50,716 nucleotides of DNA from a virus. The stretch spans positions 1 to 50,716 of IMG/VR virus record IMGVR_UViG_3300026319_000007; one strand, given 5' to 3'. The stretch's first letter is position 1. Each line of letters begins with the position of its first letter. This document shows positions 29,588 to 40,471 of the stretch, in pieces. The notes below the pieces were generated by a model that did not search any database, was not told the origin of the DNA, and saw nothing but the letters and a program-made list of their open reading frames with translations. The position numbers and the translations under genes are program-made.

Positions 29588-29863
29588 TTATTCCTCTGGT
29601 TTAATGATCTCAACAGTTCCATCTTCTTTTAAATGCAATACTTGACCAAAATTTTTAACTGAGTCTTTAAGAATTTCTTCTTTAGTACGATTTGTTTTCA
29701 TCACTGAATCTACATACCCCATCTTAGCCATTTCTGTGAGAATCATAACTCGTTCTTCTTCTGTAGCAGATCTTTTTTGCCATTCCTCTAATTCTCTTAC
29801 AGACTGAAAGAAAACTAAAGCTGCTTCACTTTTCATAGTAAATAAGTACATTTTAGCCTTCAT
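29588..29863 (-). CDS. Hypothetical protein
   Basis: 91 aa from the ATG at 29863; an upstream start at 29926 would run deep into the cREC gene. N-terminal beta-like stretch then charged helices (ATEEERVMILTEMAKMG) and an acidic tail. It overlaps the cREC gene by 11 nt. Function unknown. Confidence 0.5.
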   Translation of the reverse strand: MKAKMYLFTMKSEAALVFFQSVRELEEWQKRSATEEERVMILTEMAKMGYVDSVMKTNRTKEEILKDSVKNFGQVLHLKEDGTVEIIKPEE

Positions 29864-30161
29864 TGTATTGTACCGCAGTTTTCCAATAGTCCAATCCCAG
29901 AATCTCCGCCATTCTCTGCCCGCCATAGGGATTGCCCGTATGGAACTGCACTATGGGACGCTTTGGCATCAGGGCTATGTACCGAGCGACGGGCTCGAAA
30001 GTCTCGAATCCCCTGGTTCCCGGAATCGATTGCTGGATGTCGTGGTCTAGGCTCACGACCTCGACAGGAACCGTCGCCAAAAGCCTGATAGCATCCGTGA
30101 TGGTGCTGGCCTTGTACCAATCTACCCATTCCTTTCTGATGTCATCAACAAAAAGCTTCAT
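29853..30161 (-). CDS. Cyclic-phosphate-processing receiver (cREC) domain protein
   Basis: 102 aa. Matches the cREC pattern: LFVDDIR at the N-terminus (acidic D6, D7), VVSLDHD (S37-D41) and a late QFHTGNPYGGQRM (72-84). This receiver-like family is predicted, from its genomic links to RNA ligases and phosphoesterases, to process cyclic phosphates at RNA ends. An RNA ligase (32441) and a metallophosphoesterase (31735) are encoded 1.6-3.2 kb upstream in the same direction, which fits RNA repair. GC-richer than its neighbours. The catalytic role has not been demonstrated here. Confidence 0.7.
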   Translation of the reverse strand: MKLFVDDIRKEWVDWYKASTITDAIRLLATVPVEVVSLDHDIQQSIPGTRGFETFEPVARYIALMPKRPIVQFHTGNPYGGQRMAEILGLDYWKTAVQYNEG

Positions 30162-30198
30162 GTTTTTCTTGCCCGTCTAGTTAAATAAGTTACTTTCA

Positions 30199-30429
30199 TT
30201 ATCGTAATCCATTCATAATTCCAAAACATCCGCTACATTTAGCTTGATAGTTTTTATCTGTTAATGAACAGTCTGTTTTACAAAATTTGCATCGCCCAAC
30301 AATGACAGTTAAATTAGCTTCATTTGTTCCCTGAACATGAATGTGACCACTCCAAACTATTGCCAATTCTTGCGGATGATATATGCATGTTCGCATATAT
30401 AATCCAATAGTAATTTTAAGTTTTTTCAT
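30199..30429 (-). CDS. Small zinc-ribbon protein
   Basis: 76 aa from the ATG at 30429, 1 nt after the upstream stop; an in-frame upstream ATG at 30552 lies within the neighbouring gene. The beta-rich N-terminus is followed by C-x2-C-x3-C and C-x2-C (CKFCKTDC ... CSGC) near the end. Possible RNA/DNA-binding zinc ribbon. Confidence 0.5.
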   Translation of the reverse strand: MKKLKITIGLYMRTCIYHPQELAIVWSGHIHVQGTNEANLTVIVGRCKFCKTDCSLTDKNYQAKCSGCFGIMNGLR

Positions 30430-30430
30430 T

Positions 30431-30601
30431 TTAACACCCTGCTGGGGAATCCTCATTTTCCACGATGATGCTGCCGCATCCCATCCTGGTGCAACTATAA
30501 ACACTTCGTTCCGGTGACGACACCAGGCTATTGTACTCAAATTTGCAGACATGCTTATCTTTGCTTTGTCTGATACGCTTATTATTTTTTAATTTTTTCA
30601 T
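30431..30601 (-). CDS. Small Cys-containing protein
   Basis: 56 aa from the ATG at 30601, which has AAGGAA upstream; an ATG at 30622 is less likely. Basic N-terminus, then four Cys (HVCKF, SCTRMGC, AGC) compatible with zinc binding. Overlaps the metalloprotease-like gene by 20 nt. Confidence 0.45.
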   Translation of the reverse strand: MKKLKNNKRIRQSKDKHVCKFEYNSLVSSPERSVYSCTRMGCGSIIVENEDSPAGC

Positions 30602-30908
30602 TTGTTCTTCCTTTTCTTTCAAGAACCAATGCGGTTCTACTGAGGATTGTTGGAATCACTTGTTCCAGGATTTCATGTTGCTCTTTTTCAGATGGAACCC
30701 GGATCGCCACTGTGCTGATTATGAAGAACCACAGGTGGAGGAGCTCATGAAGCATCGTTTCTGAAAAAATGTATCCATCCTTCAGCGCCAGATCGGATAG
30801 ATAGATTCTGAACTTCTTCTTATCCACGCTTGTCAGCCCGTAGCAGGCATCCCTGCCGTGGTACAGCCTCTTTCGGCTTTTTATAGTACCCGAAAGGTCA
30901 ATCTTCAT
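30582..30908 (-). CDS. Putative zinc metalloprotease (HExxH)
   Basis: 108 aa. HELLH at residues 54-58 inside the helix SETMLHELLHLW, with downstream Glu residues (74-82) that could supply the third zinc ligand. The size matches small phage proteins with a minimal zincin core. It overlaps the serine-protease start by 4 nt, so the two are probably co-translated. Substrate unknown. Confidence 0.6.
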   Translation of the reverse strand: MKIDLSGTIKSRKRLYHGRDACYGLTSVDKKKFRIYLSDLALKDGYIFSETMLHELLHLWFFIISTVAIRVPSEKEQHEILEQVIPTILSRTALVLERKGRTNEKIKK

Positions 30909-31594
30909 TTGTCCATAATCCGTAGGTCCGGCTGAAGCCCATACTCACCCAATGCCTTCCTGTTCTTTCGGAGAAAGAACACGATGGAATCCAGGCTTTG
31001 TGCCTGGGAGAGATGTGTTACGCCAAGTCCGACAATCGCCACGGAAACCGCGCACCCGACCAGTTCCTCATTCTTGTTGAACACCACCCCGCCAGAATTT
31101 CCTGGAAGCACCGACTCGTCCATGAATAGGATGTCCCCGTCAACCTTCGCCACCTTGCCCCACGATTGCGTTCCAGTTAGAGCCAGGGGAGATCCAAGGG
31201 TGGAAATATCCTCTCCCTGGGTCACTGAGGATGCCAGAAGGAAATAAGAGGTATTGCGCCTGTCTATGTGGATCAAGGCCAGATCTTGCAGGGCTGAGGA
31301 GCTTACGATAGTGCCGCGATACTCTTTGTTGTCGGAGGTCACTACCATTATAGTGTCCGCATCCTCCGTGCAATGTTTTGCCGTAATTATATCGCCGTAA
31401 CCGTCGATAAATCCGGCAGAGCAGACGAAGTGCCTGTCAACGAGGAGAGGCACTTTCTTCTTTCCATGTCGCATCTCAACCGTATTGGTGATATCGGCTT
31501 TTGTTATTTGAAGTTCGACGACCTTTGGGGTAACATCAGCCTTTGCCATTTGTATTGCCCCAAGAAAAAGCAAAATTCCAACTAATTTTTTCAT
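30905..31594 (-). CDS. Secreted trypsin-like serine protease
   Basis: 229 aa. An N-terminal signal peptide (hydrophobic 4-15, AKA before residue 20) precedes a chymotrypsin-fold domain with H74 (TAKHC), D104 (DLALIHID) and S167 (PGNSGG), the complete catalytic triad of the DegP/trypsin-like group; no PDZ domain follows. It would act in the periplasm or outside the cell. A phage protease with a signal peptide is uncommon; it is not the usual prohead protease. AAGGAG ribosome site. Confidence 0.8.
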   Translation of the reverse strand: MKKLVGILLFLGAIQMAKADVTPKVVELQITKADITNTVEMRHGKKKVPLLVDRHFVCSAGFIDGYGDIITAKHCTEDADTIMVVTSDNKEYRGTIVSSSALQDLALIHIDRRNTSYFLLASSVTQGEDISTLGSPLALTGTQSWGKVAKVDGDILFMDESVLPGNSGGVVFNKNEELVGCAVSVAIVGLGVTHLSQAQSLDSIVFFLRKNRKALGEYGLQPDLRIMDK

Positions 31595-31603
31595 CCTGGC
31601 TCC

Positions 31604-31735
31604 TTATTCATTAAATGAGTCGAAAATTCTATCGATAACTTCGATCAAAAGAACACTTCCAACAAATAATACTAAAAGAATAAAAGTAGCTGCAATTAAG
31701 CCTAAAAATCCCTCAAGTAATAAATCTGTAAACAT
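31604..31735 (-). CDS. Small membrane protein (43 aa)
   Basis: ATG at 31735 overlaps the upstream stop as TGATG. A single long hydrophobic segment (about 9-32) with acidic ends. The AAGGAG for the serine protease begins at its stop codon. Function unknown. Confidence 0.55.
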   Translation of the reverse strand: MFTDLLLEGFLGLIAATFILLVLFVGSVLLIEVIDRIFDSFNE

Positions 31736-32454
31736 CAGATCTTTCCCGACACATCCACAATAACTTCCTTTTCCCTTGTGTTGAGATAGAGAATTGCGAA
31801 TCCCTTGCGCTGCGGAGCATAGTAAGCTTCGTCAGCATAGGAAGGGAAATTCAGTAGGCTTCCTGTATTGACAAGAGTAACATCGTGTCGTACTCTCTTT
31901 CCTTGCTTATTTATATCCCAAAATCCACGGTTGGTTGTCGCAAGTTCATGAGTGTGAGAACAAGCGCAAACATCCGCTGAGGGAAATTGGCGCATAAGAG
32001 TAACCGAATTTCCGAAGGTGTTTGAACCAAATCCAGTTCCATGCTTGTAGGCCACGCCGTAGTTGACCTTTCCGGCCTTGACCACGACAAATCCCTGGTT
32101 GGGATTGTAAAGTTTTTTGAGCCCGAGATGCTTTGCAAGCTCATAGTCCATGTCAATCCCCGCCTCGTGCCGAGTTCTTCCCGAGTGATTTCCCTGGACC
32201 AATCCAAGGATCTTCTTCCGAATTGGATAGAATAACTCCTCTCCATAATCCAATTGCTCTTGGGGAGTCAGAACTTGATCAAACATCATATGGCCCTTTT
32301 TGGGAATTACATTCTCGAAATTGTCGGACAGGAGAAGTGCATTGGCATCAGTCTCCTTAACAAAGTTCACATATCTCTGGGCCATCTTAAGGTCGGCATT
32401 GCGGTGTCCGATGTGAACGCATCCAAAAATCACTAATGGCCTATAATTTTTCAC
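31735..32454 (-). CDS. Metallophosphoesterase (calcineurin-like)
   Basis: 239 aa. Motifs in order: GCVHIGH (11-17), LSDNFEN (42-48), QGNHSGR (87-93), KHG (137-139) and CSHTH (165-169). These are the metal-binding blocks of calcineurin-like phosphoesterases, except that block I has Cys12 where Asp is usual and block II reads SDN. Next to an RNA ligase (14-nt overlap), it could remove RNA-end phosphates, but DNA or nucleotide substrates are equally possible. The altered first motif may affect metal use. Confidence 0.75.
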   Translation of the reverse strand: MKNYRPLVIFGCVHIGHRNADLKMAQRYVNFVKETDANALLLSDNFENVIPKKGHMMFDQVLTPQEQLDYGEELFYPIRKKILGLVQGNHSGRTRHEAGIDMDYELAKHLGLKKLYNPNQGFVVVKAGKVNYGVAYKHGTGFGSNTFGNSVTLMRQFPSADVCACSHTHELATTNRGFWDINKQGKRVRHDVTLVNTGSLLNFPSYADEAYYAPQRKGFAILYLNTREKEVIVDVSGKI

Positions 32455-33358
32455 TTGTCACCTCTTCAGTTTTAAACATTGATTCTGCCAATTTTTGCTT
32501 GTAAAATTCCGGAAAGCCTCCCATGATTCCTCTGCTGATCTGGGGCCATGCCTGCTTAAACAACTCCTCTTTAATCTCTTCGGCTCGTTCCTTGAAAACA
32601 TCCTGGCCAATCTCTTTAAGAATAGGGCCGATGTCCTGGGGGGCATTCAACAACTTGCTATCCTCCCGAAGGTGCTGTATGGCCTTGTTCCATGTTGCCT
32701 CGGTCTTGTACATCAAAATTATGTTCTGCACCACGTCCTTGCTATTCGGATTCGACTTCTTCCATTCGGCTTTGTGATCTTCCTTGAACTTCTCGCTCAC
32801 CCACTTTCCCATCAGGGTTTTTTTGTCAACTCCAAACTGATCATATGCCTTGATGACAAAGCCCTCGATCTTGCTTCCTCCAAGAAAGGATTCTCGATCA
32901 AAAAATTCTCGAAGAGTATTAACATCCTTAACCAGACCATGCCAAAATGCTGGAACTACTTCAAGATCTAATCGAGCTGCTTCAATACATTTAACAGCAT
33001 GACTAACATATTTTTGATCTCCCATATCAATATCAAAGATCACAATATTATGTAAAGGAACTCGTCCATAAGTAAGTGTATTATGGTGTTCTCTAAAAAG
33101 AACCTCTCCCCGAAAAGTCCAGTTGAGTGGAAGCAGGTGCCGAATCGACATCACATACTCGCAAGCGCCTTTGAAGAGCTTATTGTCTATCGGCGGGTAT
33201 AGTATAGCCCCTTTTGACTTCATTATCAAGCCCCCAGCTTCATACATCCCAAAAGAGAATTGAGAGCCATCCACCTTCTCTTCAATTAACACCTCTGAAT
33301 TAAAGAGTGTTTCTATACGCTTATGCCCCAGATTGTAAATCGAGCTATAGCTGTTCAT
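32441..33358 (-). CDS. RNA ligase (Rnl2-like nucleotidyltransferase)
   Basis: 305 aa. Nucleotidyltransferase motifs: I EEKVDGS (adenylated Lys28), III FRGEVLF (E85), IV IEGFVIK (E165), V GKWVSEK (K185). The C-terminal 110 residues are helical, as in Rnl-type ligases. It seals 5'-phosphate and 3'-hydroxyl RNA ends using ATP. Neighbours are a phosphoesterase downstream and a SAM methyltransferase upstream, both overlapping by 14 nt. Repair of host-nuclease-cut tRNA or other RNA is a reasonable inference. Confidence 0.85.
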   Translation of the reverse strand: MNSYSSIYNLGHKRIETLFNSEVLIEEKVDGSQFSFGMYEAGGLIMKSKGAILYPPIDNKLFKGACEYVMSIRHLLPLNWTFRGEVLFREHHNTLTYGRVPLHNIVIFDIDMGDQKYVSHAVKCIEAARLDLEVVPAFWHGLVKDVNTLREFFDRESFLGGSKIEGFVIKAYDQFGVDKKTLMGKWVSEKFKEDHKAEWKKSNPNSKDVVQNIILMYKTEATWNKAIQHLREDSKLLNAPQDIGPILKEIGQDVFKERAEEIKEELFKQAWPQISRGIMGGFPEFYKQKLAESMFKTEEVTSEKL

Positions 33359-33860
33359 TATTTGTTTCCTTGGCGTTATTCAATAATTTCATGAAACAGA
33401 ACCAGTGTGTTTTAGATTTTGACCCACTTGGATGGCCAAATAAAGGCTCGCGTTGAAGTATAGAAAGTATTTCCTTGGTCTTAATCTCTACTTCATTCCA
33501 CTTAAAAATTAATGTGCCAAAAGGTTTTAAAACTCGCCAACATTCATCAAATCCCTTTTTAAGATCATTTTGCCAAGTATTAGGATTTAATCGTCCATAA
33601 GTCTTTCCCATATCAGCAGTTTCAGAAAAAGTGCTGATGTGTGGAGGATCAAATACTACTAATGAAAAAGAATTATCTGGAAATTGTAGAGCTCTAAAAT
33701 CCATTATTTCGTCAGGCATAACTTGATGATTAGGCCGATGAATGCGATGACCTTTTTCTGCTACACGATTATCAACATAAATAGCATTTTTATGTGTCTT
33801 ATTGAACCAAAACATTCGACCCCCGCAACAAGCATCTAAAATAAATTTATTTTTTAGCAT
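33345..33860 (-). CDS. SAM-dependent methyltransferase
   Basis: 171 aa. Motif I variant ILDACCGGRMFWF (7-19), acidic binding of the SAM ribose at YVDNR, and catalytic-type motif VVFDPPH (68-74). The C-terminal part (FGTLIFKWNEVEI, PLFGHPSG, KTHWFCFMKL) is typical of a widespread phage/bacterial class I methyltransferase of unknown target. DPPH resembles the DPPY motif of N6-adenine or N4-cytosine enzymes, so DNA or RNA modification is possible. Confidence 0.8.
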   Translation of the reverse strand: MLKNKFILDACCGGRMFWFNKTHKNAIYVDNRVAEKGHRIHRPNHQVMPDEIMDFRALQFPDNSFSLVVFDPPHISTFSETADMGKTYGRLNPNTWQNDLKKGFDECWRVLKPFGTLIFKWNEVEIKTKEILSILQREPLFGHPSGSKSKTHWFCFMKLLNNAKETNNEQL

Positions 33861-34188
33861 CTAAATTCTCCAATTTCATTTTTTCAATCTCATTGATCTT
33901 ATAAGTATCACCAGTATCTTCAAACTTAAATTTCAAATAGTCAGCTACGGCTTTGGTTTCTTTGGTACCCAAAAGAAGGTCATTGAACATGACAGCGAAG
34001 ACGGTGAACTTCCCGTCTACCAAATCGCCATACACCATAACTTCCTCTTGGCAAAAGGCGGCGAGCTTGTCCGCAGTACTCTGCTTCTCCGACTGGCCTA
34101 TTCCAGCCCTGTCCAAATCAGGATGGACGGTATCGTCGAGGAAATTCTGCCTCAGTTTCCCCTTCTTATACTGCAAGTAGTTTAGCAT
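33847..34188 (-). CDS. Hypothetical protein
   Basis: 113 aa from the ATG at 34188; a TTG at 34206 is in frame. Middle segment EEVMVYGDLVDGKFTVFAVMFNDLLLG is beta-rich, the rest helical and charged. Overlaps the methyltransferase start by 14 nt. Function unknown. Confidence 0.5.
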   Translation of the reverse strand: MLNYLQYKKGKLRQNFLDDTVHPDLDRAGIGQSEKQSTADKLAAFCQEEVMVYGDLVDGKFTVFAVMFNDLLLGTKETKAVADYLKFKFEDTGDTYKINEIEKMKLENLDAKK

Positions 34189-34209
34189 TTGACTTTCTAA
34201 CCCCAAAGA

Positions 34210-37080: not shown

Positions 37081-38955
37081 TTATTCTCCTTTTGCTTCCG
37101 CCCAGGACTTTCCAACTCCAATGTCTGCCACCAAGGGCACTCGAAGGCTCACAATATTTTCCATTGAGTATTTAATTTGGGCCAGCGCCTCATCAACATT
37201 GGCATTTTCAATTTGATAATTCAGTTCGTCGTGAATCAGAAGATTTGGAACATACCCATACTCTTTATAAATTCTTAAAGTTGCAAGTTTACACATAGAA
37301 CTAGCAGTGCCTTGAACTAAAATACTCATTGCACTCCGTTCTGCTTCTTCTCTCATAAAACAATTTCTGCAAAACTTACCAGACTTTGAGCAATTCCAAT
37401 TTCCACAAGTCAACACAAGTTGAGGAATAGATACCCATCTACCATACCAATCGGTTACACCTCGATTAGCTCTTGCTTTTCTTTTCTCTTCTTTGAGCCA
37501 TGCTGCCAGGACTGGATATCCTTCCCAAAACTTTTCAAAGAGTCTTTCAGCTTCTTTTTCAACAACATTTAATTCATTGGCTAATCGAGAAGCTGTGCCT
37601 GAATTAGTAAGAAGGAAGTTACAAGTTTTTGCAATAGTACGTTTTTCTTGATAATCAGATCGAGATTCTACATCATTACCAAAGATTAATTGAGCAGTTA
37701 CTTTATGAACATCTCCACCGTCAGACTTAAGATATTCATTTACAAGTTTAGGTTCTCTTGAAAAATGTGCTGGAAGTCGAAGTTCAATATTGCTCCAGTC
37801 TGCATTGATAAATTTTGAACCATCATCAGCCACAAATGCTTCACGAACTTCAGGTGGTTGATTTTGAAGATTTACTGGATCGGAACTGCTGAGGCGTCCT
37901 GTAATAGTGTTCTGCGCAAATCGTGCATGAATATGGTGGTTGGCATCCTTGATGGCATTGGTATAAAGTGGAGTGGTATAAGTCGAGCATAGCTTTTGGT
38001 AACCGCGATACTCAAGAAGAATCGATATCATAGGATTTTTGCTATAACGATTTAAAGTGCTCTCATCGGTTTTTTTAACTCCGATCCCATTTGATTGAAG
38101 GACATTGAGAACCTGCTTTGGAGAATTGAGGTTAATGGTTCGATTGGCTAGCCGCGTGAACTCTTTTCGATATTGTCGTCGAGACTTACTGAACTGATTG
38201 TGCAGTTGGAGAATTTTTTTGGTATCAATTTTAACTCCCTGTTTTTCAGTATGATAGAGAAGGCGATTCATCGGCATCTCGATAGTCTCGAAAAAATTCT
38301 TCTGAGCCACAGAAAAATTGGTTTCTAACCATTTCCATAATTTGAACTGGAAGAAAACATCACAAGCATTATAAGCAGCTACATACTCTTTAGGCATTTT
38401 ATCCAATGTCAATTCTTTTGGATATACCACACCTTTTTTCTTTTGAACCATTAAATTTGAATCCTGATCACAAACTTGTTTGATCATCTCCACATTCGTT
38501 GTCATCTCCTCATATGTAGGGTATTCAACGCCAAAAGTATCTTTGATAAGAGGCTTAAGAGAATAATTTTTACGAGAGGAGTCATACACATAGAAACCAA
38601 TTTTAGTATCAAAATACAATTGATCAATCGTAACGCCAGCCGAAGTGAGCCAAGGGATTTCAGCTCTCTTACCATCTTGCGCCACAAAGCCAACAGTACG
38701 GAGGTAAGCAAGAAGCTGAGGACGAACATCGAAATATATATAAGCATCCCGCCCATTGCCACAAATGCCCACGCAAACAATTTTGAAATCACGATCAGTA
38801 ACCTCCTTTCCATTTGTTTCTAAGTCAATAGAAGCAATAGTCTCAGTGGGAAAATGTTCATAGTCATCAATATGGACTATTCCTCCATATTGTTCTATGC
38901 CCCAATCAAATTTACTTTTCGGTAATGTAACCGGAGTTTCGGACAATAATTCCAT
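37081..38955 (-). CDS. Family A DNA polymerase with 3'-5' exonuclease domain
   Basis: 624 aa from the ATG at 38955, which has GAGG 9 nt upstream; an ATG at 38964 is possible (numbers here count from it). Exonuclease: DLE (47-49) and Y198-x3-D202. Polymerase motif A FINADWSNIELR (D389), B R442-x3-K446-x3-F450, C HDE (578-580). Departures: W and N replace the common Y and Q of motif A, N454 replaces the usual Tyr of motif B, and a CxxxxC...CxxC insert (C520, C525, C532, C535) precedes the last helix of the fingers/palm. It replicates the phage genome with the adjoining prim-pol/helicase. Confidence 0.92.
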   Translation of the reverse strand: MELLSETPVTLPKSKFDWGIEQYGGIVHIDDYEHFPTETIASIDLETNGKEVTDRDFKIVCVGICGNGRDAYIYFDVRPQLLAYLRTVGFVAQDGKRAEIPWLTSAGVTIDQLYFDTKIGFYVYDSSRKNYSLKPLIKDTFGVEYPTYEEMTTNVEMIKQVCDQDSNLMVQKKKGVVYPKELTLDKMPKEYVAAYNACDVFFQFKLWKWLETNFSVAQKNFFETIEMPMNRLLYHTEKQGVKIDTKKILQLHNQFSKSRRQYRKEFTRLANRTINLNSPKQVLNVLQSNGIGVKKTDESTLNRYSKNPMISILLEYRGYQKLCSTYTTPLYTNAIKDANHHIHARFAQNTITGRLSSSDPVNLQNQPPEVREAFVADDGSKFINADWSNIELRLPAHFSREPKLVNEYLKSDGGDVHKVTAQLIFGNDVESRSDYQEKRTIAKTCNFLLTNSGTASRLANELNVVEKEAERLFEKFWEGYPVLAAWLKEEKRKARANRGVTDWYGRWVSIPQLVLTCGNWNCSKSGKFCRNCFMREEAERSAMSILVQGTASSMCKLATLRIYKEYGYVPNLLIHDELNYQIENANVDEALAQIKYSMENIVSLRVPLVADIGVGKSWAEAKGE

Positions 38956-40471
38956 TTTGAACATCCTCTATTTCGATCTTAAAACTTTCATGCTTCTTTT
39001 GATATCGAGCTTTACTATGCTCAAAAAGTAATACTCCATCTTGCCAATCAAGGCTTATCACCTGATCCACCGCATCGCCCTTTGCTCCGCTTCCCCTCAA
39101 TCGTTTATTTCCCGCCTGGTGATACTGGGCCGATCCCTTCGTCTCGTGGTCCACGAGCATCACGGCGCATTTATAGGTGTCACAAAGGGGCGCGATGAGC
39201 TCATCAAAAAAGTATCTCATGTCCTTCGACTGGTTTTCGTCAAGCGTGTGCGCCGATGCGAATGAATCTATCACAACCAAGACTGGATGAATCTTCTCAA
39301 TCGTTTCGCACAGCTTTCGATAATGGTTATTGTTCGTGATCTTGATCCGATTGCGGATAAAGTAATAAAGGCTTAAATCATCCGTCGTGAGTCCCTTTGG
39401 CGAAATCAGCTGGCGAAGTCGATATGAGGTTAAATTACCACCAAGCTCATTGTCTATAAAAAGAACCGATCCGTGCTTTGTGCCAAATGTGTCCAGCCAT
39501 TTACCGTTCCCCTTCTTGCGTGAAATCTCGATGATGAGGTCGGTGGCAACAAACGTCTTCCCGAGTCCCTGATACCCACTGAATATCACCGATGAGGCCA
39601 TCGGAATTAGGCCATCCACAAGATAGTCAATCCTATTGGCAAACTTATGCACCACCTCAGTCGCGCTGAGAGGAGAAATTACCGACTCCTGCTTCAGTTG
39701 CTCAATGTACTGCGAGCTATATTCACCCTTCGTGAACCTCTGAGTAAAATCAACTATTTGTTCCTCAAGTTCCTTGTCCTTGTACGGTGGCCGGTTCTTT
39801 TTATTCCACTCTCGCAGATGTTGTGCCGCCACATCTGAATTCATGCAATTGTAATAGTAACCCGCGAGTCTTACCAATGCTTGATGGCGTTCCCCCTCTC
39901 CAACTCCATCAAGGATATCTTCGAGCCAAGATTCCTTGTTTTCAATCTGCAAATTACTTTCCCGAACTTCTGGTTCTTTGAGTAATAAATCAAGCAGCCA
40001 TTGGGGACAGTCTGAAATGGGTTGAGATAGATCATTCCATGTATACCGTGCGCCATCGGACCTGACTGATGGGGGCAATTTGACATAACCCCCCGTTCCA
40101 CGAACATCTATTTCTTTTTGTATTCTAGCAAGAGTTGTTTTCTTTTCATCAAGAGACTTAGGCCAGTTGAAGTGATATTGCATTCCCCGTTTAGTATGAA
40201 CACTGAGTGTAAGGGGATCTTTTCTGTCAAGATAAGTTCGTTGGCCTTCAGCTCCATCAATATCCAGCACGATCCGTTTTGAGATAGGCCCCGTAACCAT
40301 GCCAATATCTGCCGTTGGCCATTGGGTCCACCATTTGTTGATTTCTTCTTCATTTGCCTTCCTTGTTTGAAATTCTTTCCACAGAATTAATGGGGTTTTA
40401 TCCTTCACTGGAATGATAGATAGGCCGAGCTTCTGATAGTACAAGGCCCAATCACGCATTGCATTATCCAT
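38912..40471 (-). CDS. Primase-polymerase / RecA-like helicase
   Basis: 519 aa fusion. N-terminal bifunctional prim-pol domain (about 10-165): LSIIPVKDKTPLILW, MVTGPISKRIVLDIDG with catalytic D70/D72, and a later basic/His part (VHTKRGMQYHF). C-terminal RecA-like ATPase (about 285-480): Walker A SGYQGLGKT (298-306), Walker B VLVVIDS (397-403), then MLVDHETKGS and RLRGSGAKGD typical of phage helicases. It would prime and unwind DNA at the fork. Overlaps the polymerase gene by 44 nt and the upstream nuclease by 1 nt (TAATG). Confidence 0.88.
   Translation of the reverse strand: MDNAMRDWALYYQKLGLSIIPVKDKTPLILWKEFQTRKANEEEINKWWTQWPTADIGMVTGPISKRIVLDIDGAEGQRTYLDRKDPLTLSVHTKRGMQYHFNWPKSLDEKKTTLARIQKEIDVRGTGGYVKLPPSVRSDGARYTWNDLSQPISDCPQWLLDLLLKEPEVRESNLQIENKESWLEDILDGVGEGERHQALVRLAGYYYNCMNSDVAAQHLREWNKKNRPPYKDKELEEQIVDFTQRFTKGEYSSQYIEQLKQESVISPLSATEVVHKFANRIDYLVDGLIPMASSVIFSGYQGLGKTFVATDLIIEISRKKGNGKWLDTFGTKHGSVLFIDNELGGNLTSYRLRQLISPKGLTTDDLSLYYFIRNRIKITNNNHYRKLCETIEKIHPVLVVIDSFASAHTLDENQSKDMRYFFDELIAPLCDTYKCAVMLVDHETKGSAQYHQAGNKRLRGSGAKGDAVDQVISLDWQDGVLLFEHSKARYQKKHESFKIEIEDVQNGIIVRNSGYITEK

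Follow-up and report, generated by a model that had tools for sequence, protein, structure and literature searches.

We analysed a 50.7-kb sequence of an uncultured phage (IMG/VR record IMGVR_UViG_3300026319_000007; 50,716 nucleotides in full, here called the window), whose structural half is encoded on the plus strand and whose early half lies mostly on the minus strand. The early half contains four genes that an earlier note had proposed to act together in RNA repair: those of a cREC (cyclic-phosphate-processing receiver-like) protein, a calcineurin-like metallophosphoesterase (MPE), an Rnl2-like RNA ligase and an S-adenosylmethionine (SAM) methyltransferase. As described there, we found all four as open reading frames (ORFs) on the minus strand within 4 kb (Table 1), transcribed in the order methyltransferase, RNA ligase, MPE, trypsin-like protease, SprT-like protein, unknown ORF and cREC. 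The methyltransferase and ligase genes overlap by ~14 nt in an operon-like manner, and so do those of the ligase and the MPE; 1.6 kb separate the end of the MPE from the start of cREC, which is thus not adjacent to the other three and has three genes before it. The shared strand carries little information, because the genes are part of an extended early region with the same orientation.

Table 1. Coordinates and family matches of the genes discussed in the window
Feature	Position	Strand	Family match	Remark
cREC protein, 102 aa	29853..30161	minus	PF20274, E 5.8e-13
Unknown ORF with Cys pairs	30199..30552	minus		directly upstream of cREC
SprT-like protein	30582..30908	minus	PF10263, E 6e-4, below cut-off	between MPE and cREC
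Trypsin-like serine protease	30905..31594	minus	PF13365, E 2.7e-15
Calcineurin-like MPE, 239 aa	31735..32454	minus	phrog_7339, E 1.6e-36	overlaps ligase stop by 14 nt
Rnl2-like ATP-dependent RNA ligase, 305 aa	32441..33358	minus	PF09414, E 1.4e-13; phrog_548, E 8e-22
Phage DNA-methyltransferase-family (SAM) protein, 171 aa	33345..33860	minus	phrog_954 'DNA methyltransferase', E 2e-66	DPPH motif
Conserved small protein	33847..34206	minus		69% identical at L003:9667-9984; upstream of methyltransferase and ligase
PolA	37081-38964			early half
Prim-Pol/AAA primase-helicase	38912-40471			early half

The ligase and its putative end-healing partners

By family, motifs and predicted fold the ligase is an RNA-ligase-type enzyme, whose substrate would be RNA. 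Its PF09414 match passes the cut-off, and the nucleotidyl-transfer motifs are found as K28-x-D-G, R83-G-E, F-D109, E165-G, K170 and K185; K28, D30, G31, E85, G166, K170 and K185 are invariant among 53 ligase homologues, and E165 is nearly so. The best PDB match of the AlphaFold model (pLDDT 90, pTM 0.66) is T4 RNA ligase 2 (Rnl2), with a Z score of 16.8 over 189 residues at 2.9 Å (Foldseek E 4e-10); the Naegleria RNA ligase scores 16.4, T4 Rnl1 14.2 and DNA ligases 10-12. The window ligase has the motifs and the predicted nucleotidyltransferase fold of T4 Rnl2, but differs from it in overall sequence (~18% identity), at the position of the second motif-V lysine of T4 Rnl2, which is Val187 here and valine in all 53 homologues, and in the C-terminal helical domain, which may be placed differently or may not be comparable. 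The model has helices at 189-295, and its alignment to 2hvr_A reaches residue 268, but with a root-mean-square deviation of 14.4. Phmmer searches of the ligase, the MPE and the methyltransferase against PDB sequences returned nothing useful. Relatives of the ligase with 30-44% identity (L181-L194) occur on contigs of Chloroflexi, Gemmatimonadetes, Gammaproteobacteria and Micrarchaeota genomes.

The closest relative of the window, the 52.7-kb sister phage IMGVR_3300017605_000425 (L003/G001), has most of the early region in common with it, with identities of 82% for the ligase, 92% for the MPE and 73% for PolA and a low nonsynonymous divergence (dN) of 0.12 for the ligase. Neither cREC nor the methyltransferase was found anywhere in the sister record, so that the four genes, whose co-occurrence the earlier note had suggested checking, are not co-conserved. 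The sister encodes, 0.8 kb upstream of the ligase and on the same strand, a 285-aa T4-type Pnkp (PF25109 E 6e-52, phrog_505 E 4e-94) with a kinase P-loop and a HAD phosphatase domain. When this Pnkp was used as a query, neither a match nor a remnant was found in the window, which could itself be incomplete.

A ligase profile found 181 viral loci, of which 80 were kept, and family searches covered 50 long records, a set that differed by two records between searches; the comparison set comprised 34 records picked only for carrying an MPE or the methyltransferase and is not a random phage sample. Full-length Pnkp was present in G001, G003, G027 and G042, and HAD_SAK_2, whose family name is 'HAD domain in Swiss Army Knife RNA repair proteins', in G004, G005 and G006. 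cREC was confined to two of the 50 ligase records (G002 and G004). The comparison records contained no strong Pnkp, no cREC and one HAD_SAK_2. HAD_SAK_2 lies directly 3' of the ligase in all three cases (L025, L026 and L027), cREC follows the ligase on the same strand at 2.6 kb in L025 and 5.4 kb in L023, and Pnkp lies 1.1 kb (L019) or 5 kb (L024) downstream. In an 88.7-kb phage record, a HAD_SAK_2 gene (G067:C1:74376-74798) contains a single interrupting TAG codon, which may indicate stop-codon reassignment or a broken gene.

In a FastTree phylogeny, ten of the ligases form a clade with a support of 0.98, and eight of these ten (those of the window, the sister L003, L019 and L023 to L027) are accompanied by Pnkp, HAD_SAK_2 or cREC, compared with 2/43 of the other ligase phages and 1/34 of the comparison phages. 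The Fisher test for the core of the clade (6/7) yields p ~1e-5, a value that ignores the relatedness of the phages; the stronger argument is that the same setting is occupied by three families which are unrelated but for which a single role is proposed. The Pnkps of the clade and their ligases show similar divergence (50-53% identity). This would be consistent with an ancestral Pnkp that was later replaced in some branches, including that of the window.

In the window, the replacing enzyme would be cREC. Its score of 49.8 bits lies above the PF20274 cut-off of 27, and in an alignment with other phage cREC proteins it retains the acidic DD and D-H-D motifs together with HTxNP. The homologue at L023:14288-14593 reads LNHN for the conserved LDHD, has a shortened C-terminal part and is possibly inactive; its start is overlapped by a low-molecular-weight-phosphatase-like ORF (L023:13924-14295), a relative of which is found at L028:9789-10139.

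Proposed role in RNA repair

Because the healing families are frequent in the ligase clade and rare elsewhere, we favour, with a probability of roughly 60%, a variable RNA-repair kit over a set pathway of four genes; of this kit, the ligase would be the constant part and the end-healing enzyme the exchangeable one. Rnl2-like ligases require a 3'-OH and a 5'-phosphate, and the window ligase would seal RNA breaks with such ends in an ATP-dependent manner, once the ends have been healed; the breaks may be anticodon-loop or other RNA cuts introduced by host defence nucleases. The end-preparing enzyme would differ between phages: some have a T4-type Pnkp and others a HAD_SAK_2 phosphatase, and the window has cREC, which is predicted to open 2',3'-cyclic phosphates. 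By established chemistry, RNases that leave cyclic phosphates leave a 5'-OH. No kinase was detected in the window, which implies that the host supplies the kinase, that the targets have 5'-phosphates or that the gene was missed. The MPE, the host or some gene not recognised as such might then remove the left-over phosphate and phosphorylate the 5' end, steps that might be unneeded if the cut leaves a 5'-phosphate. Of the RNA-repair role suggested earlier, we thus retain the ligase, which related phages pair with Pnkp or HAD_SAK_2, and more weakly cREC, but not the methyltransferase.

Several observations weigh against such a kit. The exchanges are few in number and come from related phages, and ~41/43 of the ligase phages outside the clade have no detected healing gene. 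Neither the window nor the cREC and HAD_SAK phages yielded a 5'-kinase, which leaves the classical pathway incomplete, and the activity of cREC, described as experimentally uncharacterised (PMC9503650), is only a prediction in the literature. Moreover, in about one third of the ligase phages the ligase is located near primase and DNA polymerase, which also fits a role in DNA metabolism: PolA and the primase-helicase are each encoded no more than 8 kb from the ligase in 25/80 loci, mostly on the same strand.

A possible, if rather unlikely, alternative therefore is that the ligase mainly seals nicks during replication and recombination, that cREC acts separately on signals of the NAD or ADP-ribose type, and that the two are close to each other as small early genes that cluster. 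Hybrid nicks, or nicks that contain RNA, can serve as substrates of Rnl2-like enzymes. In line with this alternative, just 2/50 ligase records, and not the window, were found to encode a conventional ATP DNA ligase, the majority of ligase phages are without any healing gene, and in Eldridge, DSS3P8 and S-SKS1 a cREC occurs with no RNA ligase annotated nearby. A nick-sealing enzyme is, however, harder to reconcile with a predicted fold that is nearest to T4 Rnl2 and the Naegleria RNA ligase and not to DNA ligases, or with three unrelated RNA-end-healing families that occur beside the ligase within its clade but are scarce in other phages.

The metallophosphoesterase, the methyltransferase and their neighbours

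The Pfam match of the MPE to Metallophos_2 is weak (E 0.026), and its motif I reads GCVHIGH, in which the first metal-ligand Asp is changed to Cys, as it is in the sister (L003:11535-12254) and at L103:661-1362; nearly all MPE relatives keep a DxHxG-type motif I with Asp. All remaining metal-ligand motifs (of DxH, GD, GNH, H and GHxH) are present. The structures nearest to the MPE model (pLDDT 89) are the PolD DP1 exonuclease (Z 17), an MJ (archaeal) phosphodiesterase (16.7) and Mre11 (15.5); the bacterial Pnkp phosphatase domain is not among the fold matches listed, which excludes nothing. L103 belongs to a 38.4-kb record (G051) with the same replication genes, which is apparently complete, because it has a 127-bp terminal overlap. 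Here, PolA is followed by the MPE and the trypsin-like gene, and we found no ligase, Pnkp, cREC, HAD_SAK_2 or methyltransferase. Therefore, the MPE does not depend on the ligase, and since one phage of the lineage has it in the absence of a ligase and its motif I carries an unusual Cys, its role in RNA repair is putative.

We also consider unlikely a more specific, kinase-less form of the kit, in which Pnkp, HAD_SAK_2 and cREC would be exchanged around the constant Rnl2-like ligase to match the RNases of different hosts and the Cys-type MPE would be a new RNA-end phosphatase. The calcineurin-like phosphatase domain of bacterial Pnkp removes 2',3'-cyclic or 3' phosphates, and the MPE could in principle do the same and hand the end to the ligase as part of a two-gene heal-and-seal unit. 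We regard this as quite improbable. The two genes overlap in the window, the sister keeps both, and the MPE shows the smallest change of the genes compared (dN 0.06); unrelated MPEs lie near a few other ligases (L097, L084 and L076), and calcineurin-like enzymes have been listed among the possible RNA-end phosphatases of jumbo phages (PMC7824862). However, the sister has two small genes between ligase and MPE and encodes Pnkp as well, a strong phrog_7339 match was found in only 1/50 ligase records (G001), the closest folds are those of exonucleases and phosphodiesterases, and the motif-I Asp is lost. The idea of the MPE as a fixed ligase partner is further weakened by G051.

The methyltransferase (METHYLTRANSFERASE) comes and goes independently and is no repair enzyme; it is probably a bystander. 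It occurs in 233 phage records, compared with a single phage species, Troll, for a distant relative of the ligase, and a full-length copy of the methyltransferase was found in 0 of the 50 long ligase-phage records, the sister record included. Between window and sister it is a clean 0.5-kb indel, in which positions 33344-33873 of the window are missing from the sister, where the homologous flanks abut within 37 nt. Its sequence lacks the EExxH metal motif that Hen1 would be expected to have. We rejected it as an RNA modifier on its family membership and its lack of co-occurrence with the ligase, and found no link to RNA. A single trim-ligate-modify pathway with Pnkp-Rnl-Hen1-like logic, for which the earlier note had argued from one strand, 4 kb and, we may add, the overlaps of methyltransferase, ligase and MPE, is thus highly improbable: the sister is without cREC and methyltransferase, the latter is of a phage DNA-methyltransferase family with a DPPH amino-methyltransferase-like motif that is widespread in phages without the ligase, the MPE persists without the ligase, cREC is rare among the ligase records, and three other genes precede it.

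Among the neighbouring genes, the trypsin-like protease is a constant feature downstream of the ligase in the window and seven related loci (8 loci). It has an N-terminal hydrophobic stretch, looks unrelated to nucleic acids and has no part in RNA repair. The unknown ORF upstream of cREC has no Pfam or PHROG match, and the syntenic position of the sister genome holds no complete equivalent of it or of cREC. The conserved small protein upstream of the methyltransferase likewise has no family match (Pfam, PHROG), and its homologue in the sister abuts the ligase directly. The early half also encodes a PD-(D/E)XK nuclease, a dNMP kinase and endonuclease VII homologues. Three endonuclease VII/HNH-like ORFs in this 50-kb phage (34828-35175, 40471-41007 and 45697-46080), two of which have a common stretch at 51% identity, are probably free-standing homing endonucleases. 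No tRNA genes were found in the window, promoters at the locus showed no excess over shuffles, and one weak terminator-like site lies inside the ligase gene. A near-DNA search of 50,697 phage records returned no match to the window; a 19-kb contig, IMGVR_UViG_3300002906_000009 (L002), encodes proteins 100% identical to those of the window across the early region that it covers.

Relation to known repair systems

Compared to the tRNA repair by Pnkp and RNA ligase in T4, the window likewise places an RNA ligase in the early region, and its close relatives have a T4-type Pnkp beside this ligase. It differs in that the ligase is Rnl2-like and not Rnl1, and in that cREC is found instead of Pnkp. 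The combination is thus distinct from T4 Pnkp/Rnl1 for the window, as previously noted, but less so for the lineage, since the sister pairs the same ligase with a T4-type Pnkp. RNA-repair/NAD neighbourhoods of cREC and RNA ligase, sometimes with a calcineurin-like phosphoesterase, have been predicted in jumbo and V5-/Mydo-like phages (PMC7824862, PMC9503650). The window also contains all three genes in one region, but in a ~50-kb phage, with cREC separated from the ligase by other genes and without a recognised sirtuin, kinase, Nudix or 2H gene. The bacterial Pnkp-Rnl-Hen1 system (PMC4411300) would also join a calcineurin-like phosphatase, a ligase and a methyltransferase; in the window, however, no kinase was detected, the methyltransferase is not Hen1-like and the MPE is a separate gene with an exonuclease- or phosphodiesterase-like fold.

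In summary, we describe a lineage of phages with genomes of ~40-60 kb that retain the ligase but vary in the predicted healing enzyme; of two close sisters, the window carries cREC and the other phage Pnkp. If the variable kit is real, RNA repair would extend beyond T4-like or jumbo phages to ordinary phages of 40-60 kb and would be organised around a fixed ligase with exchangeable end-healing parts. The related ligases with their different partners form a natural set, in which the predicted cREC activity is directly testable. The expectation is that this ligase would depend on cREC in the one phage but on Pnkp in the sister.

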